The notes beneath the pieces were generated by a model. The model was not told the origin of the DNA. It made no database searches and was given only the letters and a program-made list of their open reading frames with translations. Below, piece by piece: positions 5,109 to 51,452 of a stretch of 64,000 nucleotides of DNA. Position numbers and translations under genes: made by a program. Origin of the DNA: Erysipelotrichaceae bacterium (GTDB lineage: Bacteria > Bacillota_I > Bacilli_A > Erysipelotrichales > Erysipelotrichaceae); NCBI GenBank assembly GCA_017533785.1, contig JAFWII010000020.1:1-64000 (forward strand), in the 5' to 3' direction. Position 1 is the stretch's first letter. The number at the start of each line of letters is the position of its first letter.

Positions 5109-6137
5109 ATGGGAAACGTATTAAGCAAAGACAGATTACTCGGCATCGTGAAAACGGTAGCCGTCCCCGCTGTTGTCTGGATCCTGATGGAACTGATCTG
5201 CCGCACTCAGGCAGGTACCAGCGTCGTCGCTAACTCCGCGGATGTCCGCACTTTCTTCCGCAACATGGTCTCGACCGTCGCCTTCGCACTGGCGATCAGC
5301 ACGAACCTGAACTGCGGTCGTATGGACCTTTCTCTTGGCGCGCAGATGTATGTCGGTACGATCTTCGGCGGAAATATCGCTCTCGCTCTCAATCTCGGCG
5401 GCGTTGGCGTTCTCGTCCTCGCAATGCTGATCGGCGGCCTCTGCGGCCTGATCTGCGGTATCGTCTTCGTCAACCTGCGCATCCTGCCGATGGTTCTGGG
5501 TCTCGGTATGACGCTCTTATTTGAGTGCATCTGTTTCTCCATCAATAACCAGCAGGGCGTCATCCTCTACGGCAAGCCGGGTGTTGAGATCCTCTCCAAC
5601 AGCACCTTCATCATCTTCGTCGTCATCGCTCTTGTCGCAGTCGCTGCACTCTTATTCAAGTACAGCCGCTTCGGTTACCGTTACCGCGCCATCCAGGGAA
5701 GCCAGAAACTGGCTTCCGATGCCGGTATCAATATCTTCAGCAACTGTGTCTTCTGCTATCTCTTCGGAGGTATACTGGTCGCCTGCGCCGGTGTCTTTAC
5801 AACGATGTATTCAGGCTCTCTGGCTCCGGTTCTGGGCATGAGCTCCAACGGATACGTATTCCGCAATATGTTCCCGATGGTCTTGGGTGCCTGGATCGGC
5901 AGCTTCAGCCATAATGCCCAGTTCGGCGTCGCAATGGGCGCGATCTGCGTCAACCTGCTGACACTGGCTATGTCCAAACTGGGTCTTCCGCTGAACGTAC
6001 AGAACGTTCTGGTCTACTCGCTGTTCCTGTTGTTCATCATCTACAACACCAACAAGCGCAAGTTTGCATACAACAGAGCAAAACGTGCCCGCATCGCGCT
6101 GGCAAAGCAGACGAAAGCTGCAAGACAGCCTGCATGA
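5109..6137 (+). CDS. Second sugar ABC transporter permease
   Basis: A 342-residue multi-spanning CUT2-type permease with a GINIFSNCVFCYLFGG loop, distinct in sequence from the permease at 2736. It starts after an AAAGGGGGAGTG ribosome binding site. Its TGA overlaps the ATG of the first sulfatase in an ATGA arrangement, so transport and desulfation are translationally coupled. A weak GGCC-stem hairpin lies in the 85-bp gap from the binding-protein gene and may set relative expression. Confidence 0.88.
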   Translation: MGNVLSKDRLLGIVKTVAVPAVVWILMELICRTQAGTSVVANSADVRTFFRNMVSTVAFALAISTNLNCGRMDLSLGAQMYVGTIFGGNIALALNLGGVGVLVLAMLIGGLCGLICGIVFVNLRILPMVLGLGMTLLFECICFSINNQQGVILYGKPGVEILSNSTFIIFVVIALVAVAALLFKYSRFGYRYRAIQGSQKLASDAGINIFSNCVFCYLFGGILVACAGVFTTMYSGSLAPVLGMSSNGYVFRNMFPMVLGAWIGSFSHNAQFGVAMGAICVNLLTLAMSKLGLPLNVQNVLVYSLFLLFIIYNTNKRKFAYNRAKRARIALAKQTKAARQPA

Positions 6138-7639
6138 AAGCTGTAATGGTCATGTACGACTCCCTCCGCCTGGATTGTTTACCAAGCTACGGCGGAAAGG
6201 AGATCGCGCTGCCGAATTTCGAAAGATTGGCAGCTCATTCGGTAGTCTTTGACAAGAGCTATGTATGCTCGCTGCCCTGTATGCCTGCAAGAAGAGAACT
6301 TCATACCGGCCGCCCCAACTTCATTCACCGGAGCTGGGGCCCGCTGGAGCCCTTCGATGACTCCATGCCGGAACTGCTCAAGCAGCACGGTATCTATTCA
6401 CGTCTCGTGACCGATCACAACCATTACGTGGAAGACGGCGGCGGGACTTACTGCCCCCGCTACTCGACCTGGGAATGCAACCGCGGCCAGGAAGGTGATC
6501 CGTGGGCAGGACATGTTAACCACAACGTTCCGAAGAATCCTCATACACTGACCAAACTCGACGCAATGCCGGAACCGGTCGCGAAAGTCATGGGAAAACT
6601 CTACGCCCAGGATGTCTACAACCGTGAAAAATTCACCGCAACGGAAGACTATCCGCAGGCGAGGACATTTGCCCAGGGCCTGGAATTCCTCGAGAACAGT
6701 TTCCAGGAGGATAACTGGTTTATCCAGATCGAAACATTCGACCCGCATGAGCCTTTCGACGCTCCGAACGACTATGTCAGCAAACTCTTTGACCCCGATC
6801 AGGTCTCCGAACTCGACTGGCCGCCGTACGCACGGGTCAACGAGCCGCAGGAGGTCATCGATCAGATCCGCCGCAAATACCTGGCTCTGCTCGCCTTCTG
6901 TGATGACAGCCTTGGAAAGGTGCTCGATGTCTTCGATAAGTATGACTTATGGAAGGATACCCTGCTGATCGTCAACACCGATCACGGTTATCTGCTTGGC
7001 GAACACGGCTGGTGGGCCAAATCCATGATGCCGGATTATCAGGAGATCGCGCATACGCCGCTGTTCATCTGGGATCCGCGTTCCGGAAAGAAGGGCGAAC
7101 GCCGTCAGAGCCTCGTGCAGACGATCGACCTGGCGCCGACCATCCTCGAATACTTTGGTCTCGAGATCCCGAAGGACATGCTGGGCAAACCGCTGCGCGA
7201 AGTCATCGCGAATGACGAAGCTGTTCGTGAATACGGGATCTTCGGTTCCCACGGCGGACCGATCAGCATCACCGACGGGCAGTATGTCTATATGGTTGCA
7301 CCGGTCCCGAACCATCCGGAGCTCTACGATTACACGCTGATGCCGACACACATGCGTGCCCGCTTCAGCGTTGCGGAGATGCAGCAGGCGACACTTGCCG
7401 AGCCGTTCGGCTTTACCAAGAACTGCCCGGTCCTGAAGATCCCCGCGCAGGTCAAGGCAATGACGGTTCCGGAACTGATGGAAGGTCAGACTGTGCTCTT
7501 TGATGTGATCAGCGATCCGCAGCAGACTTCCCCGATCCGGGATGCGGCCGTAGAGGAACGCATGAGAAAAGCGTTAATCGAGATCCTTAAAGAAAACGAA
7601 ACACCCGAAGAATACTACGCTATTTACGGGCTGAACTAA
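6134..7639 (+). CDS. Sulfatase 1, Cys-type, cytosolic
   Basis: This enzyme hydrolyses a sulfate ester, likely on an imported sugar. It has 501 residues and no signal peptide, so it should act in the cytosol. The formylglycine signature C-x-P-x-R is complete: Cys49, Pro51 and Arg53 in CMPAR, followed by the HTGR segment. An N-terminal Asp (residue 9) and a DTDHGYLLGEHG segment (about 278-289) supply the expected metal and substrate residues. Activity needs conversion of Cys49 to formylglycine by an anaerobic sulfatase-maturating enzyme, which is not in the window. The start overlaps the permease stop by 4 bp. Confidence 0.93.
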   Translation: MKAVMVMYDSLRLDCLPSYGGKEIALPNFERLAAHSVVFDKSYVCSLPCMPARRELHTGRPNFIHRSWGPLEPFDDSMPELLKQHGIYSRLVTDHNHYVEDGGGTYCPRYSTWECNRGQEGDPWAGHVNHNVPKNPHTLTKLDAMPEPVAKVMGKLYAQDVYNREKFTATEDYPQARTFAQGLEFLENSFQEDNWFIQIETFDPHEPFDAPNDYVSKLFDPDQVSELDWPPYARVNEPQEVIDQIRRKYLALLAFCDDSLGKVLDVFDKYDLWKDTLLIVNTDHGYLLGEHGWWAKSMMPDYQEIAHTPLFIWDPRSGKKGERRQSLVQTIDLAPTILEYFGLEIPKDMLGKPLREVIANDEAVREYGIFGSHGGPISITDGQYVYMVAPVPNHPELYDYTLMPTHMRARFSVAEMQQATLAEPFGFTKNCPVLKIPAQVKAMTVPELMEGQTVLFDVISDPQQTSPIRDAAVEERMRKALIEILKENETPEEYYAIYGLN

Positions 7640-7643
7640 AAAC

Positions 7644-7678
7644 AAACGGCCCTCCGCTTTTTACGGAAGGCCGTTTTT
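7644..7678 (+). terminator. Terminator-like hairpin between sulfatase 1 and GH3
   Basis: AAACGGCC (7644-7651) pairs with GGCCGTTT (7669-7676), with extra inner CCG/CGG pairing, and is followed by T's to 7678. It sits inside an otherwise continuous operon, so it probably attenuates transcription rather than ending it. Confidence 0.7.
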
Positions 7679-7699
7679 CCCCAGAGAAAGGAAGAATTT

Positions 7700-10045
7700 A
7701 TGAAAGACAAGATCAACAAACTGCTTCAGGAAATGACGCTGGAAGAAAAAGCCGCGATGTGTTCCGGATTCGACTTCTGGCATATTCAGGGCGTCGAACG
7801 TCTTGGCATCCCGAACATCATGATCACCGACGGTCCGCACGGCCTTCGCAAACAGGCAGGTGCAGCTGACCATCTCGGTCTTAACGCGTCTGTACCGGCG
7901 ACCTGTTTCCCGCCGGCAGTCACGACTGCCAGCAGCTGGGACAGAGAGGCGATCCGCCGGCAGGGATCTGCTATCGCCGAAGAATGCATTCAGGAAGAAG
8001 TTGCCGTCGTGCTCGGGCCGGGCACGAACATCAAACGTTCTCCGCTGTGCGGCCGTAATTTCGAATACTTCAGTGAAGATCCGCTGCTTGCCGGCGAAAT
8101 GTCTGCAGCGATCATCGACGGCATACAGGAAAAGGGTGTCGGCACTTCACTTAAGCACTTTGCCGCAAATAACCAGGAAAAGGCGCGCCTCACCTCCAAC
8201 TCGGTGATCGACGAGAGGGCTCTTTGCGAGATCTATCTGAGACCTTTTGAGAAAGCGGTCCGCAAATCCCAGCCCTGGACGCTGATGTGTTCCTATAACC
8301 GCATAAACGACGAATACTCCTGTGAAAACGACTGGCTGCTCAATAAGAAGCTGCGTCAGGAGTGGGGCTTCAAGGGTATCGTCATGACCGACTGGGGCGC
8401 AATGAACGAGCGTGTCAAAGCTCTGAAAGCCGGTCTGGAGCTTGAGATGCCGGGCAAGGACAGCTACAATGACCGGCTGATCGTCGAAGCTGTCAATAAC
8501 GGCGAACTCGATCCGGCCGTCCTCGATGGCGCAGTCGGCAGACTGCTCGAGATCATCTTGCGCTTCGCGGAAGTCAAAAAGGCTCCCTACGATGCAAAGG
8601 CGCATCACGCTCTGGCAAGAGAGATCGCCGGTGGCTCCCTCGTTCTGCTCAAGAACGAGGACGCTCTGCCGCTTGATGCCGGAAAGAAGTACGCAGTCCT
8701 GGGCGCATTCGCGAAAAAACCGCGCTATCAGGGTGCCGGCAGCTCCAAGATCAACTGCCATAAGGTCGATGAACCGTTCGCAGAACTGACCGGACTGGGC
8801 ATCGATGCCGTTTACGCTCCGGGATATTCTCTGGAGAACGATGAAGTCGACGAAGTCCTGTTGCAGGAAGCAGTCGAATGCGCGAAGAATCAGGACGCGG
8901 TCATCGTCTTCGCCGGTCTGCCGGATGCTTACGAGAGCGAAGGCTTTGACCGTACGCATATGAATATGCCGGCGAGCCATAACGCGCTGATCGAAGCGGT
9001 CGCGGAAGTCAATGATAATGTGACTGTTGTTCTGATGTGCGGTTCTGCGGTAACGATGCCGTGGCTCGGCAAAGTCAACGCTGTTCTGCTTGCATACCTT
9101 GGCGGCGAAGCAGCCGGTGGCGCTATTGCTGACGTTCTGACGGGCAGAGTCAATCCATCCGGCAAGCTGGCAGAGACCTTCCCGGTCTGCCTTGAAGACA
9201 ACCCGTCCTACGGTTTCTTCGCGACCGAGGATCCGGATGTCGAGTACCGTGAAAGCATCCTTGTCGGTTACCGTTTCTATGACTGGGCGGACAAAGAAGT
9301 CCTCTTCCCGTTTGGTTACGGCCTGAGCTATACGAAATTTGCTTACGAGGGTCTGGAAGTCTGCTGGGATGACGAAACCGGAAAAGGCGAAGCCAGAGTC
9401 ACTGTCCGCAACTGCGGAGAGCGTGACGGCAAAGAAATCGTCGAACTCTATATCGCCAAGAACGGCTCTGCCGTTCTGCGTCCGGTCCGCGAGCTCAAGG
9501 GTTTTGCCAAGGTCTTCCTTGCTGCCGGCGAGACAAAGACGGTTGCGATCCCGCTCTGCAGATGCGCATTCTCCGCATATGACCGTTTCAGCCACAGCTG
9601 GAAGATCGAGGATGGCAGCTATACCGTCTTCGCCGGTTCGAGCAGCCGCGAACTGCCTTTATGCGCTGAAGTCTGCGTAAAGGGTGAAGCTCTTACGCCG
9701 GACTATATCTATACACAGGAAAAAGCACTCAGGGACGGCCGTCTTTCGGTCAGCTTCGAAGCGTTTGCAAAACTCTTTGAAGGCGAAGTCCCGCTCCATA
9801 AGGATGACGGAAGACCTTCCGTCAACATGTCCGTACGTCAGGCTCTGGAGAACGAAAAGGTACGTCCGCTGGTCGAACCGTTTGCAGAAGCCTACAAGAA
9901 ATCCTACGAAGGCCGCACGGATGATATCGCCGTGATGATGCTGGCGATGTTCTATGATATGCCGCTGCGCTCTTTGTCCCTGTTCACCGGCAGACACGGT
10001 TACTTCCAGGACGCGATCGCTGCGCTGAATAAAGGAGAGGAATAG
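7700..10045 (+). CDS. Glycoside hydrolase family 3 beta-glycosidase
   Basis: A 781-residue GH3 enzyme that should remove terminal beta-linked sugars by a retaining mechanism. The N-terminal barrel carries TDGPHG (43-48) and KHFAANN (152-158), and the nucleophile is Asp231 in VMTDWGAM. The C-terminal half has the family's alpha/beta sandwich (VLLKNED, GAGSSKIN) and a fibronectin III-like end. An extension of about 100 residues follows the usual FnIII end, with no recognised domain. No signal peptide is present, so it works on imported substrate, in line with its sulfatase neighbours. The start follows an AGAAAGGAAG site. Confidence 0.92.
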   Translation: MKDKINKLLQEMTLEEKAAMCSGFDFWHIQGVERLGIPNIMITDGPHGLRKQAGAADHLGLNASVPATCFPPAVTTASSWDREAIRRQGSAIAEECIQEEVAVVLGPGTNIKRSPLCGRNFEYFSEDPLLAGEMSAAIIDGIQEKGVGTSLKHFAANNQEKARLTSNSVIDERALCEIYLRPFEKAVRKSQPWTLMCSYNRINDEYSCENDWLLNKKLRQEWGFKGIVMTDWGAMNERVKALKAGLELEMPGKDSYNDRLIVEAVNNGELDPAVLDGAVGRLLEIILRFAEVKKAPYDAKAHHALAREIAGGSLVLLKNEDALPLDAGKKYAVLGAFAKKPRYQGAGSSKINCHKVDEPFAELTGLGIDAVYAPGYSLENDEVDEVLLQEAVECAKNQDAVIVFAGLPDAYESEGFDRTHMNMPASHNALIEAVAEVNDNVTVVLMCGSAVTMPWLGKVNAVLLAYLGGEAAGGAIADVLTGRVNPSGKLAETFPVCLEDNPSYGFFATEDPDVEYRESILVGYRFYDWADKEVLFPFGYGLSYTKFAYEGLEVCWDDETGKGEARVTVRNCGERDGKEIVELYIAKNGSAVLRPVRELKGFAKVFLAAGETKTVAIPLCRCAFSAYDRFSHSWKIEDGSYTVFAGSSSRELPLCAEVCVKGEALTPDYIYTQEKALRDGRLSVSFEAFAKLFEGEVPLHKDDGRPSVNMSVRQALENEKVRPLVEPFAEAYKKSYEGRTDDIAVMMLAMFYDMPLRSLSLFTGRHGYFQDAIAALNKGEE

Positions 10046-11529
10046 TGGAAAAGCGTCCGGATATCCTGCTTTTCATGTCTGATCAGCATTCCGCCGCCCA
10101 GATGCACTGGGCCGGCGGAATTGCGGAAACACCAAATCTGGACGCGCTTTCCGCCGAGGGAACTTCCTTCACGCAGGCGTATACCAGCTGTCCGCTCTGT
10201 GTGCCTGCACGCATGTCTTTCCTAAGCGGGCTTTTACCGAGCAGAACCGGGGTACTGACCAACAACGATACCCTGGCGGATACGACACCGACCTTCCTTC
10301 ACGCCCTGGTCTCCACAGGGTATGAGACCGTACTGATCGGCCGTATGCATTTTGTGGGCAGAGATCAGCTGCACGGTTTTACCAGACACATCGGCGGCGA
10401 TATGACACCTGTTACCTGGAACCGCCCGGTTGAACGGATCGCAGAAGAACGCGGGATCATGCGCATGGGGTATGCCTATTTCGGAGCGCTGCAGGTCATG
10501 GGTGCCGGAGAAAGCCCGGTGCTCCATTTCGACGAGCACATCATCGCGACCGCAAAAGACTATCTGGCACAGCCGCATGAAAAACCGCAGTTCATCCTTG
10601 TCGGCACCTACGGTCCGCATTTTCCGTATGTCGCCCCGGGAGATCTCTACTTTAAATATAAAGACCGGATCGCGGCTTTGGGCGAGGCCGAACAGTTCAA
10701 CGAGCAGAAAGACTACATCGAGAAGAACATCTTCCTGAAGAGCCGTCAGCTCGGATCTTCCGCTGAAGAGGCGCTGGAGGCAAGAGCTGCCTACTGTTCT
10801 CTGGTCGAAAAGATGGATTCGCAGATCGGAGAGATCCGGGAAGCGTTCAGAAACTATGGGAAAACCAGCGGCAGGGGGCAGATCTTCGGCTATACCAGTG
10901 ACCACGGAGACATGAATGCTGTCTTAGGCATGTATGGCAAGCAGACCTTCTTTGATCCCTCGGTCCGCATTCCGCTGCTGCTGAGCGGGGAGGGCATTCC
11001 ACAGGGAAGAAAGATCGGAAGCCCTGTCAGTATCATGGACATCGGTCCGACGCTCTGCGAACTGGCCGGGACCTCCTTCGAAACGGCGGATTCCTTCTCT
11101 CTGGCTTCGCTTGAAGAGGATACGATCGCCAAAAGAGGTGCGGTCCACAGCCAGGTCTGGGAAGGGCTCAATCCCTTTCAATATCCTGATGACAAGCGTC
11201 ACAGTTTCGGTGCAATGGTCATCAAAGACGGATACAAATTTATCTCCTACGACGGTTTTGATGAGGATATCCTCTTTGATGTCCTTAATGATCCCTTTGA
11301 AAGGGAGAACCTCAATGCAGTCAGAAAGGATGTTGCCGAAGAACTCAGGGAGTTGTCCCTTAAGGAAGCCAAAGCGGCAGATATCATTGCGCAGCAGGCA
11401 CAGAGAGAACGCAACGCCGCCTATTTCGCCGCATACGAAAGAATGACAGGAGAACTTGAAAAACTCGACGATCAGTGGCGCTGGCGCGGCAATCCGCCGA
11501 CCGCCCGTGATCTTCCGAAAGAGAAGTAG
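10045..11529 (+). CDS. Sulfatase 2, Cys-type, cytosolic
   Basis: A 494-residue S1-type sulfatase with Cys52-x-Pro54-x-Arg56 (CVPAR) and SDQH near the N-terminus (12-15) as the metal-binding Asp region. A TSDHGDM segment (about 289-295) supplies the second metal-binding Asp and His. No signal peptide is seen. It starts with GTG, whose first base is the last base of the GH3 stop codon, after AAAGGAGAGG; the two are tightly coupled. It differs clearly from sulfatases 1 and 3, which suggests that each removes a sulfate at a different position or from a different sugar. Confidence 0.93.
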   Translation: MEKRPDILLFMSDQHSAAQMHWAGGIAETPNLDALSAEGTSFTQAYTSCPLCVPARMSFLSGLLPSRTGVLTNNDTLADTTPTFLHALVSTGYETVLIGRMHFVGRDQLHGFTRHIGGDMTPVTWNRPVERIAEERGIMRMGYAYFGALQVMGAGESPVLHFDEHIIATAKDYLAQPHEKPQFILVGTYGPHFPYVAPGDLYFKYKDRIAALGEAEQFNEQKDYIEKNIFLKSRQLGSSAEEALEARAAYCSLVEKMDSQIGEIREAFRNYGKTSGRGQIFGYTSDHGDMNAVLGMYGKQTFFDPSVRIPLLLSGEGIPQGRKIGSPVSIMDIGPTLCELAGTSFETADSFSLASLEEDTIAKRGAVHSQVWEGLNPFQYPDDKRHSFGAMVIKDGYKFISYDGFDEDILFDVLNDPFERENLNAVRKDVAEELRELSLKEAKAADIIAQQAQRERNAAYFAAYERMTGELEKLDDQWRWRGNPPTARDLPKEK

Positions 11530-43835: not shown

Positions 43836-45044
43836 ATGAAGATCCGTTTCGACACCCTGGACAAAAAACCGAAGGTCTGGAACATCGCCATCCTTTCCGC
43901 TGTGACGGCGGTTTTGCTGGCGTATCTGTCGGGACGGAACGATAAGATAGTGGCCGCTGTGGTGCCGGTCTATCTGCTGATCACGGTCGTCCTGCTGCTG
44001 CGGGCGCTGGTCCTGCAGATCCGCTACAATCCCTATTCCTACAACACGGTCTATTACACCGGCTTCGCGATCTACTGCACCCTGCTGTTTTTCGTGCATC
44101 TGTTCATCCTGTACCAGACGCTGAAGTACCCGCTGGAATATGACGGACGTCAGGTCGTGAATTATCTTTCCACGTCGGGAACGACCTATATGCTGCTGTC
44201 CTTCCCGTTCCTGTTCGTCTTCTCAGCCGCTCTGTGCGTTTCCAATATCGTACTGATCCGCAAGGAGGGTCTGCGCTTCACCAATCTTCTGGGCGTCATC
44301 CTTGCCTTTCTGCTCGTCGGCGGCGTCGTCCTGCTCTACAAGTATGACTTCTATGCCTCCGGCAGCCTGGAAGAGATCCGCCGGCACGCGCTGATCGTCA
44401 GCTTCTTCTCGACGGTCTATCTCTACTATGAATGCATGCTTCTGGGAACGATCTTTGCAGACGCTTTGACAGCACGCTATGAACCGGATCACGACCGTGA
44501 CTATATGATCGTTCTGGGCTGCGGACTGCGTAAGGACGGCACTCCGACCCCGCTCCTGAAGGGACGGATCGACCGGGCGATCGAATTTGACAGGAAACAG
44601 CAGGAACTGACCGGAAAGAAACTGACTTACGTTACTTCCGGCGGCCGGGGAGAGGATGAATTGATCTCTGAAGGCGCCGCGATGAAACGCTATCTGCTCG
44701 AGCAGGGGATCCCGGAAGAAAGGGTCATCAGCGAGGAGAATTCGAAAAACACCTTTGAAAACATGAAGTTCTCCAAGGAGAAGATCCTGGAGGACGATAC
44801 CGAAGGAAAGGGGAAGATCGCCTTTTCCACCACGAATTACCACGTTTTCCGCAGCGGACTGTTCGCCCGCCGCAACAAGATGCGCGCCCAGGGCGTGGGC
44901 GCGCCGACCAAGTGGTATTTCTGGCCGAATGCCGCTGTGCGCGAATTCGTCGGTCTGCTGACGGAACACCGTCTGAAACAGGCTCTGATCTTCGGCGGCA
45001 TGGTCGCGCTGTACATTATACTCACCCTGATCGTTTACCGTTAA
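43836..45044 (+). CDS. DUF218 (YdcF/SanA-like) membrane protein
   Basis: A 402-residue protein. The first 220 residues form about seven membrane helices. The C-terminal domain (about 225-370) is of the DUF218 type, with IVLGCGLRKDGTPTPLLKGR at its start and the family's EENSKNTFENM segment, facing the cytosol or the wall side depending on helix count. DUF218 proteins are tied to cell-envelope functions such as ElyC and SanA; the reaction is unknown. It directly precedes the STAS gene, and no clear terminator lies between. Confidence 0.82.
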   Translation: MKIRFDTLDKKPKVWNIAILSAVTAVLLAYLSGRNDKIVAAVVPVYLLITVVLLLRALVLQIRYNPYSYNTVYYTGFAIYCTLLFFVHLFILYQTLKYPLEYDGRQVVNYLSTSGTTYMLLSFPFLFVFSAALCVSNIVLIRKEGLRFTNLLGVILAFLLVGGVVLLYKYDFYASGSLEEIRRHALIVSFFSTVYLYYECMLLGTIFADALTARYEPDHDRDYMIVLGCGLRKDGTPTPLLKGRIDRAIEFDRKQQELTGKKLTYVTSGGRGEDELISEGAAMKRYLLEQGIPEERVISEENSKNTFENMKFSKEKILEDDTEGKGKIAFSTTNYHVFRSGLFARRNKMRAQGVGAPTKWYFWPNAAVREFVGLLTEHRLKQALIFGGMVALYIILTLIVYR

Positions 45045-45082: not shown

Positions 45083-45385
45083 ATGCTTAACATCACCAAC
45101 AAGACAGAGAACGGAACAGCTGTCTGCTGCCTGGAAGGCCGTCTGGATACGACGACCGCTCCGGATCTCGACAAGGAACTGAAGGCTCTGCCGGAAGACG
45201 TCAAGGATCTGACACTGGATTTCAAGGATCTTGAGTACATCTCTTCCGCGGGACTGCGCGTTCTGCTGGCGACCCAGAAGATGATGACCGAAAGAGAAGG
45301 CACGATGAAGGTCTGCAACGTCAACGAGATGGTCAACGAGATCTTCGAAGTCACAGGATTCACCGATATCCTGATGATCGCGTAA
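45083..45385 (+). CDS. STAS-domain anti-anti-sigma-type protein 1
   Basis: A 100-residue single STAS domain (SpoIIAA/RsbV-like). The phosphorylatable serine pair lies at 54-55 in YISSAGLRVL. Such proteins bind a partner when unphosphorylated and release it when phosphorylated by an RsbW-type kinase. An AGAAGGAG site precedes the ATG. A close relative lies at 47751 with the same SSAGLR position, so the locus has at least two switch proteins that may share the kinase/phosphatase at 48056. Confidence 0.9.
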   Translation: MLNITNKTENGTAVCCLEGRLDTTTAPDLDKELKALPEDVKDLTLDFKDLEYISSAGLRVLLATQKMMTEREGTMKVCNVNEMVNEIFEVTGFTDILMIA

Positions 45386-45392
45386 GCAGCGG

Positions 45393-46004
45393 GTGGACGA
45401 TTTGAAAACAGAACAGATCAAAGTTACGAGCGCCGGCGCCGGTATGGAGGAAGCGCTGCAGCTGACTGAGAAGTTCGGTCTCGAAAGCGGACTGGAAAGA
45501 AAAGAGAATCTGCGTCTCCGTCTGCTGGCGGAAGAACTCTTCGGCATGATGCGCAGCATCGTCGGCGAAGTGGAAGCTTTATACTGGATCGAAGGCGAAG
45601 ACCAGAAATTCGACGTCCACATGGAAGGCGAAGTCGTCCTGAACCAGGATGTCCGCAAGAAAATGATCGAAGTCTCGACCAGACATGAGAACGCTGCCGC
45701 ACAGGGTTTTATGGGCAAGCTCCGCGATATGATCGGCACAGCGATGCTGCCGGAAGGCGAAGGTCCGTCCATGCTGTCGCTGGGTCTGATGACCATGGGC
45801 AGCCCGAGCGGCTATATGGCCAACTCCGGTTCCTACAGCTGGTCACTGAACAAGTACCGTGAGGAACTGCAGGCAGCCGAGGATAAAGAAGCCAGGGAAG
45901 CTGCGGATGAACTCGAAAAATCGATCGTCGCAAGCCTGGCGGACGAAGTCGCTGTCCGTATCGAAGGCTCACAGGTCGAGATCGTCGTCACGATCGCTTT
46001 CTGA
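45393..46004 (+). CDS. Possible degenerate RsbW-like regulator
   Basis: A 203-residue protein of uncertain family, beginning 8 bp after the STAS stop. The segment RLRLLAEELFGMM (about 37-49) resembles the helix that carries the N-box of RsbW/HATPase proteins, and the C-terminal EIVVTIAF resembles a closing strand, but the ATP-binding DxGxG motif is not seen. It may bind STAS proteins without kinase activity. The start is GTG 45393 or, better spaced from a GGTGGA, TTG 45402. Low certainty on function. Confidence 0.5.
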   Translation: MDDLKTEQIKVTSAGAGMEEALQLTEKFGLESGLERKENLRLRLLAEELFGMMRSIVGEVEALYWIEGEDQKFDVHMEGEVVLNQDVRKKMIEVSTRHENAAAQGFMGKLRDMIGTAMLPEGEGPSMLSLGLMTMGSPSGYMANSGSYSWSLNKYREELQAAEDKEAREAADELEKSIVASLADEVAVRIEGSQVEIVVTIAF

Positions 46005-46034
46005 GCTTTTAAGTTTCAGTTATCGGAGAAAACA

Positions 46035-46508
46035 ATGAAAGAAGTCCTGCTGAATGAGGAACTGGCGCTGACGTATCCGGAAGGATTCGCTGTGCCGGGT
46101 GAAGAGGAGATGCAGAAACTGCAGTTCCTTAACAAAGGTCCGGGCGAAGTCCTGTTCGATCCGGAACGGCATATGTATGCAACTGCCGCTTATCAGACGA
46201 TCGGCGGTTTTCAGGCGATGCTGCTGAACATTCAGGATATCGGCGTAAACGATGCGAAAGCCGTCGCCAAAGCGATGGAACCGTACGACTGCCGTATGGG
46301 CGAAGTCACAACGAAGGAAGTTGCGGGTGAAAAAGCCGTTTCCTATTCCTACCACTACACCGCACAGGGGAAAGAGATGTTCGGCGAAAGCACCGAGATC
46401 AAAAAGGGCAAGAACATCTATTATCTGCACTTCTACGGCCGCGCGGAGGAAGAAGACAGCTGCCGCGCAGTGACCGCCTCTGTTCTCGGATCGGCTGTCT
46501 TCAAGTGA
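46035..46508 (+). CDS. Hypothetical protein, 157 residues
   Basis: I do not recognise this protein. It is soluble and mixed alpha/beta, with an HYTAQGKEMFGESTEI segment alternating as a beta hairpin and a C-terminal helix rich in Ala and Val. The length and layout recall DcrB/PsbP-like folds, which is only a shape impression. It sits between the RsbW-like candidate and MscS in one operon, spaced by 30 and 10 bp, with a GGAG site before the start. Confidence 0.65.
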   Translation: MKEVLLNEELALTYPEGFAVPGEEEMQKLQFLNKGPGEVLFDPERHMYATAAYQTIGGFQAMLLNIQDIGVNDAKAVAKAMEPYDCRMGEVTTKEVAGEKAVSYSYHYTAQGKEMFGESTEIKKGKNIYYLHFYGRAEEEDSCRAVTASVLGSAVFK

Positions 46509-46518
46509 GGTTTATAGT

Positions 46519-47349
46519 ATGGATGGCAAACCGTTGCCGGAAAGCATATTGGATTTTATAACCAGCAGAGGTTTCTACGGAAGCCTGATCGTGATCGTGA
46601 TCACGGCGCTGATCCTGCGCGTGATCAAACAGTATCTGATCAAAAAAGTCGCATATTCCGGGAAAGACGATCAGCATAAAAACACCTTTTTCGGTGTGGT
46701 CTTTTCAGTTCTGCAGTATGCGGTGATCCTGACGGCGACCGTTCTGGTCCTGCATTTCAACGGCATCAACGTCGTCAGCATCCTGGCCGGTCTCGGCATC
46801 GCAGCCACGATCGTCGGTCTTGCCCTGCAGGATACCCTGAAGGACATCATTTCCGGCATCAACATCTACAGCAACAATTTCTATAAAGTCGGCGATATGG
46901 TCAGCTATAACGGAGAGTCCTGCGACGTCACCTATTTCTCGGCGCGGGTCACCAAGTTCCGTTCGATCACGACCAATTCGACCTATACGGTCTGCAACTC
47001 CTCGATCAAGTCGATCGAGAAGATCAAGGACCAGAAGGTCATGACGTTCGTCCTGCCCTGGTCTTACGAAAAGGAAAAGGTCGACGAAGTCATGCACGCG
47101 ATCATGGACCGGGCAAACGAATGCATCATCGATCTGCGCAAGATCACCTATCCCGGCATCGTCAATCACGGGCGTGAGGGCATCACCTATTCCGTGATCT
47201 ACAACTGCCCGGCGCATAAGGCGTTCACCGTCAAGTGCCAGCTTGAGACCCTGGTCTACGAGGAATTCCGGAAGGCCGGTCTCCAGCCGTACTCCAACCT
47301 TACGCACCTCGATGGCAAGATCTTATGGAACACGACTTCCGATACGTAA
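46519..47349 (+). CDS. Small-conductance mechanosensitive channel (MscS family)
   Basis: A 276-residue MscS-type channel with three N-terminal membrane helices. The pore-lining helix and following loop read GLGIAATIVGLALQDTLKD (about 93-111), the family hallmark, and the beta domain begins NNFYKVGDMVSYNGESC. It opens under membrane tension to release solutes. It lies within the STAS/phosphatase operon and overlaps the next gene by 25 bp. This suggests coupling of osmotic or envelope stress to the partner switch (inference). Confidence 0.93.
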   Translation: MDGKPLPESILDFITSRGFYGSLIVIVITALILRVIKQYLIKKVAYSGKDDQHKNTFFGVVFSVLQYAVILTATVLVLHFNGINVVSILAGLGIAATIVGLALQDTLKDIISGINIYSNNFYKVGDMVSYNGESCDVTYFSARVTKFRSITTNSTYTVCNSSIKSIEKIKDQKVMTFVLPWSYEKEKVDEVMHAIMDRANECIIDLRKITYPGIVNHGREGITYSVIYNCPAHKAFTVKCQLETLVYEEFRKAGLQPYSNLTHLDGKILWNTTSDT

Positions 47350-47738
47350 GATTCCAGGGGAGAGAGCTGGCGGAGAATACCCTTTTTCCCAAGGGCATCT
47401 TCAGCATCTGCCACCAGCTCGCCAACGAGAAGATGGACGAGGAAGACGCAGCGCTGTTCTTCGAGATCGACAAATGGTTCTCCGAAGAGCTGCCCTGGCC
47501 GGGTCCCTGCAAACGGCAGGAGCGGGTCGTCTGTTTCTTCAAGACGGAAAACACCGAAGAAATGATCAAAATGGTGCGGCCGATGATGTGGCTGCTCGAA
47601 AAATACAACCATCCCTATTACGTCGTATTCACCAACACCCCCGGCGAGATCGTCTACGAGGACCGCTGGCAGGTGTGCTGCAAAGTAGAGGATCCGGAGA
47701 TCGTGGCGGTCCAGCCGTCCTGGTCACCGAAGGATTAA
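47325..47738 (+). CDS. Hypothetical protein, 137 residues
   Basis: This protein is not recognised. It is soluble, with conserved-looking aromatic and cysteine residues (CHQLANEKM, WPGPCKRQERVVCFF) and a hydrophobic strand YYVVFTNTPGEIVYED. It starts inside the mscS gene in another frame (25-bp overlap) and ends 12 bp before STAS 2. The long overlap makes the start somewhat doubtful, but codon pattern and position support a real gene. Confidence 0.65.
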   Translation: MEHDFRYVRFQGRELAENTLFPKGIFSICHQLANEKMDEEDAALFFEIDKWFSEELPWPGPCKRQERVVCFFKTENTEEMIKMVRPMMWLLEKYNHPYYVVFTNTPGEIVYEDRWQVCCKVEDPEIVAVQPSWSPKD

Positions 47739-47750
47739 GGAGGATCTGCA

Positions 47751-48050
47751 ATGTTAAAGATCGAAAAACAGCTTACAGAAAAGGATCTGTGCATTCTGCT
47801 GCAGGGGAGACTGGACTCCCAGACCTCACCGCAGCTGGAAAAGGAGATCCTTGACTCGATCCCGGGCGTTGAAAAGCTGACGCTCGACATGAAAGAACTG
47901 GAGTATATTTCCTCCGCCGGACTGCGGGTCCTACTGGTCGCGATGAAAGCGATGAAGAATCAGGGAGAGATGAAACTCGTCTCCGTCGGTGAAACGGTGC
48001 GCGATATCCTCGAAGTGACCGGATTTGCCGATATCCTGACGATCGAGTAA
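47751..48050 (+). CDS. STAS-domain anti-anti-sigma-type protein 2
   Basis: A 99-residue STAS domain with the serine pair at 54-55 (YISSAGLRVLL), strongly similar to STAS 1 over the central region and the C-terminal EVTGFADILTIE. An AAGGAGG site supports the start. It ends 5 bp before the SpoIIE-type receptor, so it is the likeliest direct substrate of that protein's phosphatase and kinase domains. Confidence 0.92.
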   Translation: MLKIEKQLTEKDLCILLQGRLDSQTSPQLEKEILDSIPGVEKLTLDMKELEYISSAGLRVLLVAMKAMKNQGEMKLVSVGETVRDILEVTGFADILTIE

Positions 48051-48055
48051 CGTTT

Positions 48056-50242
48056 ATGGCCAAGGGAAGGAAGCGGTTCAGTCTGCTTTTGCAGATCATG
48101 ATCATATTCTTTATCGTCGCCCTGACTGCCGGGGTGGCGACTTATGCGTTTCAGAACCGCCGTTCAGATGAACTCGTGCGGGAACAGGTCGAAGCGCATG
48201 CGGAAAGCGTTGCCGCGGAAGTCACGACTGCGGTGACTGAGTATCCGGCGCACGAATGGCTGCTGCGCTACTGGTGTTCGCATTTTGCGGAGCTGTCGAT
48301 CGAATACGACGCCGTCTATGAAGCAAGCACCAAGACCGCGCAGAAAGCCGCGATCTTCAGTCAGCGCCATCCGGATCTGCCGCTGCGCTATATGACGGAA
48401 GAACAGCTGGAGGCGCTGCCGCCGGAAGATCAGAAGCTCTATGCGGAGATCGCCTATTCCTGGTTGATCACCCGGATGGATCAGATCAAAAAATCCTATG
48501 ATGTCGACTATCTCTTCTGTGTGCTGACAGAAGAACCGTATTACAGACAGTTCTTCCTCTTCAGCGCCGGTGAACCGGGATGCATCCGGGGCACCAAATA
48601 CGAAGAGGTCTATACTCTCGGCACAACTGTCAACGTCAGCCCGGAACAGGCGGAAGCGATGCGTGCCGCTGAAGAGAATTCCAATCATCTGGTATCAGCC
48701 GGAAACTACATGGATTACTATACCCACCTGATGTCCTTTGACGGACACGTGATCCTGACCGGTCTGACCTTCAATATCGCCGGGCTCAACAGGAATATCC
48801 TTTCCGCGACCTGGAAAAGCGTCGGTTTCAGCATCGGTCTTCTGGCTGCTGTCGCCATGATCTTCCTGCTTGCGACCTGGACACAGGTCCTGCGTCCGTT
48901 GAAAGAAGTGCAGGAATCGATCCGCCAGTACAAGATCAGCAAGAACAGCACCGAGATCGCGGAGCGGCTCGATAAGGTCAACGCCGACAACGAGATCGGC
49001 GATCTGGCGGAAGACGTGGTCGACCTGACAGATGATATCAACGACTATCTCAACGAGATCCGCACGATCACTTCTGAGAAGGAAAGGATCGGTGTCGAAC
49101 TCGATCTTGCCAATAAGATCCAGCAGTCTATGCTGCCGTCATCCTTCCCGGCATTCCCGGGCAGAACGGAATTCGAGCTCTATGCCTCGATGGATCCGGC
49201 CAAGGAAGTCGGAGGCGACTTCTATGATTTCTACCTTATCGATGATGACCATCTGTGTCTCGTGATCTCCGATGTATCCGGCAAGGGCATTCCGGCATCC
49301 CTCTTCATGATGGTCTCCAAGATCATCCTGCAAAGCTGCGCGATGCTGGGAAGCAGCGCGGAAGAGATCCTGCAGAAGACCAACGAAGCGATCTGCAGCA
49401 AGAACGCGGAAATGATGTTCGTCAGTGTCTGGATCGGTATCGTCGAGCTGTCGACCGGAAAAATGACCGCTGCCAACGCAGGCCACGAATATCCTTGCCT
49501 GCGCCGCAAAGACGGTCAGTACGAGATGCTGAAGGACCGTCACGGACTGGTCATCGGCGCTATGAACGACAGCACCTACCACAGCTACGAGATCCAGCTG
49601 GAACCCGGTGATTCGCTCTTCGTCTACACCGACGGTGTTCCGGAAGCGACCGATAAGGATAACCAGCTGTTCGGAAACGACCGCCTCCTGCAGGCTTTGA
49701 ACAACGACCCGCAGGCGGATACACGAACGCTAATTGACAACATGACAGAGGCTGTCAGCGCCTTCGTCGGCGATGCCGATCAGTTCGACGACATCACGAT
49801 GCTGGCATTCAGATATAACGGAGCTGTAACAGATATGAAAGAAATGACAGCGGAAGCGAAGATCGAAAATGTCGGACCAGTGACCGAGTTCATCGACAGA
49901 CATCTAGACGCGATGGACTGCCCGTTCAAGGCAAAGACCCAGATCGATATCGCGATCGACGAGATCTTCAGCAACATCGCAAAATACGCCTATCCCGACG
50001 GGACCGGAAATGCCACTGTGCGTTTTGAGACGCAGCAGGAGCCCCGGGCAGCCGTCATCACGTTCATCGACGAGGGCAAGCCCTACGATCCGCTGAGCGC
50101 CGAGGAGCCGGACGTTACGTTGTCGGCGGAAGAGCGCGGGGTCGGCGGTCTCGGCATCTTCCTCGTCCGCAAGACGATGGACGATGTCAGCTATAAATAC
50201 GAGGACGGAAAGAACATTCTTTCCATCAGGAAGGAATTCTGA
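48056..50242 (+). CDS. Membrane receptor with SpoIIE-type phosphatase and RsbW-like kinase domains
   Basis: A 728-residue protein. One N-terminal helix (about 10-28), an extracytoplasmic sensor region to about 255, a second helix (about 258-281) and a HAMP-like linker lead to a SpoIIE/RsbU PP2C domain. Its metal motifs are KEVGGDFYDF, VSGKGIPASLFM, YTDGVPEA and DDITML. The last 130 residues form a Bergerat ATPase with DEIFSNIAKYAY (N-box), DEGKPYDP and GGLGIFL. One protein can therefore both phosphorylate and dephosphorylate STAS partners in response to an outside signal. Confidence 0.92.
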   Translation: MAKGRKRFSLLLQIMIIFFIVALTAGVATYAFQNRRSDELVREQVEAHAESVAAEVTTAVTEYPAHEWLLRYWCSHFAELSIEYDAVYEASTKTAQKAAIFSQRHPDLPLRYMTEEQLEALPPEDQKLYAEIAYSWLITRMDQIKKSYDVDYLFCVLTEEPYYRQFFLFSAGEPGCIRGTKYEEVYTLGTTVNVSPEQAEAMRAAEENSNHLVSAGNYMDYYTHLMSFDGHVILTGLTFNIAGLNRNILSATWKSVGFSIGLLAAVAMIFLLATWTQVLRPLKEVQESIRQYKISKNSTEIAERLDKVNADNEIGDLAEDVVDLTDDINDYLNEIRTITSEKERIGVELDLANKIQQSMLPSSFPAFPGRTEFELYASMDPAKEVGGDFYDFYLIDDDHLCLVISDVSGKGIPASLFMMVSKIILQSCAMLGSSAEEILQKTNEAICSKNAEMMFVSVWIGIVELSTGKMTAANAGHEYPCLRRKDGQYEMLKDRHGLVIGAMNDSTYHSYEIQLEPGDSLFVYTDGVPEATDKDNQLFGNDRLLQALNNDPQADTRTLIDNMTEAVSAFVGDADQFDDITMLAFRYNGAVTDMKEMTAEAKIENVGPVTEFIDRHLDAMDCPFKAKTQIDIAIDEIFSNIAKYAYPDGTGNATVRFETQQEPRAAVITFIDEGKPYDPLSAEEPDVTLSAEERGVGGLGIFLVRKTMDDVSYKYEDGKNILSIRKEF

Positions 50243-50270
50243 ACAGGAAAGACTTTGAAGAGGTAAAAAC

Positions 50271-51452
50271 ATGAAACTGATCAAAAGCGAACTGAATAAT
50301 GAGATCCTGACGGTCGGTCTGCAGGGCCATATCGATTCGAACAACGCTGCCGATGTCGAAGCGGAGATCACCGAAGCACGCGGCAGCGGAGACATCAAGA
50401 ATGTCGTCATCGATATGCAGGATCTGCAGTATATCTCCAGTGCCGGTCTTCGTATCCTGCTCCGTCTGAAAAAGATCTACCCGGAGCTGAGAGTGGTCAA
50501 CGTCAATTCTGAAGTCTATGAGATCCTGAACATCACCGGTTTCAGCGAGATGATGAACGTCCAGAAAGCCTACCGCGAACTGACGGTCGAAGGCTGTGAA
50601 GTCATCGGTCAGGGCGCCAACGGCAAGGTCTACCGCATCGATCCCGATACGATCGTCAAGGTCTACTACAAACCGGATGCGCTGCCGGATATCGAACGTG
50701 AGCGCGAACTTGCCCGCACGGCGCTGATCCTGGGGATCCCGACCGCGATCCCGTACGATATCGTCAAGGTAGGGGAGGGCTACGGCTCCATCTTCGAACT
50801 GCTGAACGCGAAATCCTTCGCCAAGCTGATTCAGGACGATCCCGGAAAAACCGATGAGGTCATCACGATGTCAGTCGACCTGCTGAAAAAGATCCACGGC
50901 ACGCTGGTCAATCCGGATAAGATGCCGGATATGAAAAAAGTCGCCCAGAACTGGGCCGCCTTCCTGAAAGACTACCTGCCGGAGGAGAACTTCAACAAGC
51001 TCGTCTCGCTGGTCGACGGTGTTCCGGAAGACCTGCATATGCTGCACGGCGACTACCACCTCAAAAACATCATGCTGCAGGATAACGAAGTTCTGCTGAT
51101 CGATATGGATACGCTCTGCACCGGCCACCCGGTCTTCGAATTCGCCTCGATCTTCAACGCCTACCAGGGATACAGCGAGCTCGATCACGACAATATGCTG
51201 CAGTTCCTGGGAATACCGTACGAGACCGGTTCCCATATCTGGGAAAAGACGCTGGAGCTGTACTTCGACGGCCGCAGCAAGGAAGAGATCGAAGCGATCG
51301 CCGACAAGGCGAAGATCATCGGCTATACCCGCAACATGCGCCGTCTGATCCGCCGCGACGCGCTTGAGAACGAGAAGGGCAGAGCCGAGGTCGAGAACTG
51401 CAAAAAGCATATCCTCGAACTCACCGAAAAGCTCGATACTCTGACTTTCTGA
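50271..51452 (+). CDS. STAS domain fused to an APH-type kinase
   Basis: A 393-residue fusion. Residues 1-100 are a STAS domain with serines at 56-57 (YISSAGLRIL). Residues 112-393 are an aminoglycoside-phosphotransferase/choline-kinase-like domain: glycine loop GQGANGKVYR, VKVYY lysine strand, catalytic HGDYHLKNIM and metal-binding LLIDMD. The kinase type resembles the TIGR02172 group, substrate unknown. Being last in the partner-switching operon, its STAS part may tie kinase activity to the phosphorylation state set by the receptor at 48056 (inference). Confidence 0.88.
   Translation: MKLIKSELNNEILTVGLQGHIDSNNAADVEAEITEARGSGDIKNVVIDMQDLQYISSAGLRILLRLKKIYPELRVVNVNSEVYEILNITGFSEMMNVQKAYRELTVEGCEVIGQGANGKVYRIDPDTIVKVYYKPDALPDIERERELARTALILGIPTAIPYDIVKVGEGYGSIFELLNAKSFAKLIQDDPGKTDEVITMSVDLLKKIHGTLVNPDKMPDMKKVAQNWAAFLKDYLPEENFNKLVSLVDGVPEDLHMLHGDYHLKNIMLQDNEVLLIDMDTLCTGHPVFEFASIFNAYQGYSELDHDNMLQFLGIPYETGSHIWEKTLELYFDGRSKEEIEAIADKAKIIGYTRNMRRLIRRDALENEKGRAEVENCKKHILELTEKLDTLTF

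Follow-up and report, generated by a model that had tools for sequence, protein, structure and literature searches.

We find that eight genes at positions 45083–51452 of the window, the 64,000-nucleotide stretch of an Erysipelotrichaceae contig analyzed here, have the sequence features expected of partner-switching systems generally. We favor, with a confidence somewhat better than even, a reading in which they encode a partner switch that works without a sigma factor: its STAS proteins would dock on W203, a dead-kinase adaptor carried by an MscS channel, and a STAS-APH protein would be a second output. Partner switching is known chiefly as a means of sigma-factor control, with few other outputs, and the mechanosensitive channel MscS is usually regarded as a passive tension valve. 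If this reading is true, phosphorylation signaling could tune a mechanosensitive channel through a conserved RsbW-fold domain borne on the cytoplasmic tail of MscS, and a function would be assigned to the widespread W203 family, for which there is no Pfam model.

The eight genes all lie on the + strand, are separated by intergenic gaps of −25 to +30 nt and are arranged in the order STAS1, W203, a 157-aa protein, MscS, a 137-aa protein, STAS2, a PP2C+HATPase receptor and STAS3-APH. The initial annotation had described one operon holding three STAS proteins, a kinase/phosphatase receptor and an MscS channel, and this description holds: all the named parts are present, on one strand and closely spaced, with the domain scores given below. 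The genes, preceded by a possible further member of the operon, are as follows.

43836–45044, + strand: DUF218 membrane protein of 402 aa, possible first gene of the operon (Pfam DUF218, 1e-25)
45083–45385, + strand: STAS1, 100 aa, candidate W203 partner (Pfam STAS, 5.4e-15)
45393–46004, + strand: W203, 203 aa, putative RsbW/SpoIIAB-fold adaptor without ATP motifs (from predicted fold and motif counts)
46035–46508, + strand: 157-aa protein of unknown family (no Pfam match)
46519–47349, + strand: MscS-type channel of 276 aa, proposed output (Pfam MS_channel_2nd, PF00924)
47325–47738, + strand: 137-aa protein of unknown family, its gene overlapping the MscS gene by 25 nt
47751–48050, + strand: STAS2, 99 aa (Pfam STAS, 4.2e-18)
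48056–50242, + strand: membrane receptor of 728 aa with PP2C (residues 396–587) and HATPase (residues 600–726) in one chain
50271–51452, + strand: STAS3 fused to an APH-type kinase, 393 aa, proposed second output (Pfam STAS, 4.8e-17; Pfam APH, 4.3e-16, 59.8 bits against a cut-off of 23.2)

The DUF218 gene stops 38 nt short of STAS1 (the spacing is 34 nt in two genus-mates), and the MscS-W203 fusion of locus L012, described below, is likewise preceded by a DUF218 gene; downstream of STAS3-APH lie TetR and ABC-transporter genes. A Pfam search with the 157-aa and 137-aa open reading frames gave no credible match. Among the loci examined, the 157-aa protein is present only in the window and two genus-mates, and relatives of the 137-aa protein are found near W203 in L012, L049 and L050; an AF2 model of the 137-aa protein (pLDDT 52.5) was not interpretable and was dropped. 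The gene order is kept in the genus-mates G001 and G003, with 65–87% identity for most proteins. The exception is in G001, which lacks MscS as well as residues 1–72 of the 137-aa protein. The G001 junction (L006, about 9930–9965) joins two places having ACGGAAAA in common, so the loss is a small deletion or else an error of assembly. Scans for promoters (4 promoter-like sites against a shuffle mean of 5.0) and terminators (15 terminator-like sites against a shuffle mean of 7.6, scattered inside genes on both strands) were not used.

The three STAS domains, which Pfam recovers at 5e-15, 4e-18 and 5e-17 in round figures, all contain an ISSAGLR motif, corresponding in STAS1 to S54/S55. Of 57 STAS rows taken from related loci, 56 retain the serine pair and one, a truncated remnant, does not. 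These are all the STAS domains found in the window assembly (G000), and the three found in each of G001 and G003 likewise sit within their versions of the operon. In the receptor, a SpoIIE-type PP2C domain (1.6e-51) is joined to a HATPase_c_2 domain (2.6e-22), and the motifs of both are intact. The PP2C acidic residues D388 and D406 are kept in 28 of 28 rows, D526 in 27 of 28, and D578 and D579 in 26 of 28 each, the remainder being gaps. Within the receptor HATPase family the N-box Glu and Asn, the D-x-G and the GGLG are invariant in 17 of 17 rows. The HATPase profile picks up RsbW and SpoIIAB in the PDB. As judged from the motifs, the kinase of the operon is probably the receptor's intact HATPase and not W203. 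The STAS3-APH sequence carries HGDYHLKN and LIDMDT motifs, and against NCBIfam TIGR02172 it scores 108.8 bits, under the cut-off of 228.2.

W203 itself has no match in Pfam or NCBIfam. Its AF2 model, built from 7 sequences and of middling confidence (pLDDT 70.6, pTM 0.66), predicts an RsbW/SpoIIAB-like fold. Foldseek returned UsfX as the best match (E 5.2e-4, probability 1.00) along with SpoIIAB and RsbW, VIA-align gave Z scores of 9.5–11.0 to UsfX, RsbW and SpoIIAB entries, and SiaB (6kko) was matched with a Z of 9.3 over 133 aligned residues. Sequence comparisons were not significant: Pfam HATPase_c_2 was recovered in 1 of 35 family members (E 0.14), hhalign against HATPase gave a probability of 0.7%, and BLASTP of W203 against the receptor HATPase found no match. 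A proof from sequence was therefore dropped, and the kinship of W203 with HATPases is one of predicted fold only. In the 35-row family alignment, every row has M, L, I or F at the position that a weak HATPase alignment equates with the N-box Asn, and just one row shows a D-x-G within the stretch where it would be expected, while E47, E48, N100, E175 and S177 are invariant throughout. W203 thus resembles a domain of anti-sigma type in which ATP binding has been lost, and without the ATP-binding motifs it is unlikely to be the kinase; another nucleotide site may be located around the invariant N100. The earlier description of this protein as RsbW-like stands for the predicted fold but probably not for the function, the ATP motifs being gone and the receptor HATPase intact.

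The channel of the operon scores 30.5 bits against PF00924 (cut-off 20.2), and an MscS beta-domain is thus present. The window assembly encodes six MscS-family proteins, the others on contigs C4, C13, C19, C24 and C36, and the window channel is divergent, with the lowest score of the six (33.7 bits). The C13 protein, a 1146-aa frame, resembles the L012 channel but is without W203. In six other loci W203 is found covalently attached, at the C-terminus of MscS.

L012, Oscillospiraceae MAG: MscS-W203 fusion of 1321 aa
L013, Eubacteriales MAG: MscS-W203 fusion of 488 aa
L014, Sarcina sp. DSM 11001: MscS-W203 fusion of 494 aa
L110, L111 and L112, from wider profile searches: MscS-W203 fusions of 465, 470 and 470 aa

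The N-terminal part of the L112 protein shows 35% identity to the window MscS over 161 aa (6e-25) and its C-terminal part 25% to the window W203 over 194 columns (1e-12). A free W203 gene comes next after the L112 fusion gene, 39 nt on, and then, after another 10 nt, a STAS gene. For the other five fusions there is no STAS gene within two genes; the L012 contig does carry STAS, PP2C and STAS-APH-HATPase genes some 22 kb from the fusion, and L110 has a STAS gene at a distance of about 4 kb. The Sarcina sp. DSM 11001 fusion comes from a strain with a culture-collection number, which makes the reading testable in vitro.

Sequence relationships indicate that the MscS-W203 fusion arose more than once, because the fused channels are rejected as one clade. 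In an MscS tree of 32 rows, the six fused channels included, these fall in three places, a constraint to a single group is rejected (AU p = 1.9e-7) and at least 4 changes of fused state are required. The L012 channel groups with large MscS proteins of G000, G001, G002 and G546, whose sites are not W203 matches. The channels of the window and G003 are sister to the channel part of L112 (support 100/99), the L112 branch being long. A W203 tree of 67 rows, in which 16 of 64 inner branches are unresolved, also scatters the fused domains.

In samples of the window's class and phylum, W203 occurs in 1 of 395 and 1 of 392 genomes, the window's own each time; a separate search matched 3 of 41, namely the window's own, G001 and G003. 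The genus-mate G002, listed as 100% complete, gave no W203 match. A genome-contig scan with W203 yielded 6 loci: the two genus-mates, the stand-alone locus L011 and three MscS fusions. Profile searches around Sarcina sp. DSM 11001 found W203 in 31 of 391 genomes of its class and 20 of 250 of its family, each count including the centre genome and a few genomes falling in both. In total 62 W203 loci were compared, several genomes contributing more than one; two are those of the window's genus-mates, the remnant L114 is included, and a weak match in G575 (E 0.004) was left out of all locus counts.

In 37 of the 62 loci, W203 has a STAS gene no more than two genes away. PP2C and HATPase genes are each present within six genes in 22 of 62 and APH in 8 of 62, and at least one of STAS, PP2C or HATPase is nearby in 43; MscS is fused to W203 or within six genes of it in 8. 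The 19 loci without these genes nearby include the fusions L012, L013, L014, L110 and L111. Since the 11 genomes in which STAS domains were counted carry just 1–7 of them each, the STAS-W203 adjacency appears, by informal comparison, far above the level of scattered genes. W203 is also fused to Abhydrolase_3, an alpha/beta-hydrolase, in two loci (L109:7404-8975 and L113:4064-5611), and given these fusions and the presence of MscS in only 8 of 62 loci, W203 is not channel-specific. We consider it about an even chance that W203 is a portable STAS-docking domain, an anti-sigma-type kinase in origin that no longer binds ATP, which Firmicutes put on MscS, on an alpha/beta-hydrolase, or leave free; partner switching would then be a general layer of post-translational control that includes phospho-controlled channel gating.

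Tandem double W203 proteins of 399–415 aa are encoded directly upstream of a STAS gene in L057, L062, L067 and L075. In L011 (positions 5258–10600; Lachnospiraceae MAG RUG12922) a stand-alone W203 gene directly follows genes for a MoxR-type ATPase, a DUF58 protein and a transglutaminase. A STAS+W203 chain in G1089 (L114:7218-7997) was rejected as a fusion: both halves are truncated and the serine motif is lost, leaving an in-frame remnant.

W203 probably connects STAS switching to MscS, given the fusions, the gene adjacency and the predicted fold taken together, and from these we infer the following sequence of events. The receptor would sense an external signal, and its PP2C and HATPase domains would determine whether the serine in the ISSAGLR motif of the STAS proteins is phosphorylated. 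When unphosphorylated, STAS1, and perhaps STAS2, would bind W203, which would sit on the cytoplasmic side of MscS, non-covalently in the window and covalently in the fusions. Binding of STAS to W203, or its release, would shift MscS gating. Through phosphorylation of its own STAS domain, the kinase STAS3-APH would be controlled as a second branch of the switch.

The initial annotation had suggested that the output may be non-transcriptional, through the channel or the fused APH kinase. The channel part of this suggestion is strengthened by the six MscS-W203 fusions and the conserved STAS-W203 neighborhood; weighing against it are the middling confidence of the W203 model, the five fusions with no STAS gene within two genes, and G001, which keeps W203 and the rest of the operon while its MscS gene is missing. 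The APH part gains from STAS-APH genes that adjoin or are fused to HATPase in L051, L076, L161, L162 and L168, and from G002, whose one STAS domain is in a STAS-APH gene adjoining a 189-aa HATPase gene, in a genome where W203 is absent. These STAS-APH loci, together with G002 and the loss of the channel gene in G001, can also be read to mean that STAS-APH is the true output of the receptor and that MscS with W203 makes up a distinct unit, osmotic or housekeeping, which happens to be in the operon. We regard that reading as doubtful: the W203 loci with a neighboring STAS gene are mostly without APH, and W203 therefore counts as a component of the STAS system independently of APH.

A distant sigma factor would offer a transcriptional target instead. 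W203 would then be an anti-sigma factor for a housekeeping, ECF or unassembled sigma factor, STAS would relieve it, and MscS would be a mere member of the operon. The predicted fold of W203 is that of anti-sigma factors, a Chlamydia partner switch acting on the housekeeping sigma factor is described in passages of PMC8256260, and the window assembly is just 88% complete. Set against this, fusions of W203 to MscS and hydrolases would be senseless for an anti-sigma factor, and no sigma factor lies nearby, as had been noted before: the sigma70 region-2 model has no match on the window's contig (C7), and its two matches in the assembly are a 484-aa frame on C45, apparently a sigma factor of housekeeping size, and a 186-aa ECF-like ORF on C27. 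G001 and G003 gave two and three matches, all in short frames, and the absence of a housekeeping sigma factor among them indicates that those assemblies are incomplete. We judge control of a distant sigma factor quite improbable. W203 might also be an atypical active STAS kinase like SiaB, with MscS as a mechanical input to the switch. The predicted structural match to SiaB would fit such a role, as would the five invariant residues, which place some site under strong constraint, and loci such as L048, L115 and L116, where STAS and W203 are the sole such genes nearby. With the N-box Asn position never Asn, D-x-G nearly always missing and an intact HATPase already carried by the receptor, we hold an active W203 kinase to be very improbable. 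The reading that we favor remains docking of STAS on a W203 adaptor that has lost ATP binding.

By its working, the closest known system is SiaABCD of Pseudomonas aeruginosa (PMC7647112, PMC8457831), a partner switch with the diguanylate cyclase SiaD as output and SiaB as an active kinase; by parts, the closest are Rsb (RsbU/RsbV/RsbW-SigB) and SpoIIA (SpoIIE/SpoIIAA/SpoIIAB-SigF). The likeness to SiaABCD comprises a membrane PP2C, a kinase of GHKL-like fold, a STAS-like target and a non-sigma output, as those papers describe them, as well as the SiaB fold that the W203 model resembles. Unlike SiaABCD, the window has kinase and phosphatase in one receptor, a GHKL-like protein (W203) without ATP motifs, and an MscS channel and an APH kinase as linked target genes; the Pfam search of the operon proteins found no diguanylate cyclase domain. 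Rsb and SpoIIA share with the window a PP2C, a conserved-serine STAS and a HATPase kinase (in passages of PMC8256260), and W203 has their RsbW/SpoIIAB fold in the prediction. They differ in that the window contig is without a sigma gene, three STAS domains are present, one of them fused to APH, and the RsbW-fold protein is without ATP motifs and is fused to MscS in other genomes. Since the locus has no sigma gene and the operon no diguanylate cyclase, we file the window system under neither Rsb/SpoIIA nor SiaABCD. The window channel resembles the MscS family in its beta-domain, which scores above the Pfam cut-off, and departs from typical MscS in being divergent and encoded with an RsbW-fold domain, to which MscS channels in other loci are fused. 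The literature searched, mostly titles and the opening lines of abstracts, yielded no partner switching on MscS and no RsbW-fold domain on MscS; one co-mention, in PMC8775919, is confined to its reference list.

Several further arrangements were seen around STAS-APH genes. Triple fusions of STAS, APH and HATPase, of 517–529 aa, occur at L051:12451-14040, at L076:5343-6914 and in L161 from 5113. A gene for a PHP-like phosphoesterase of 286–289 aa follows STAS-APH at L161:4228-5094, L168:1703-2563, L173:8166-9026 and L051:14048-14917; the Pfam PHP score, obtained for the L161 copy only, is 26.3 bits against a cut-off of 26.4. HD_4-type proteins adjoin STAS-APH in L076 and probably in L059. At L161:2364-4133 (G544, an Oscillospiraceae MAG) a MATE-family transporter is fused to HATPase_c_2 in a 590-aa protein, whose gene shares a cluster with STAS, PP2C and STAS-APH-HATPase genes, another hint that a transporter may be a partner-switching target.
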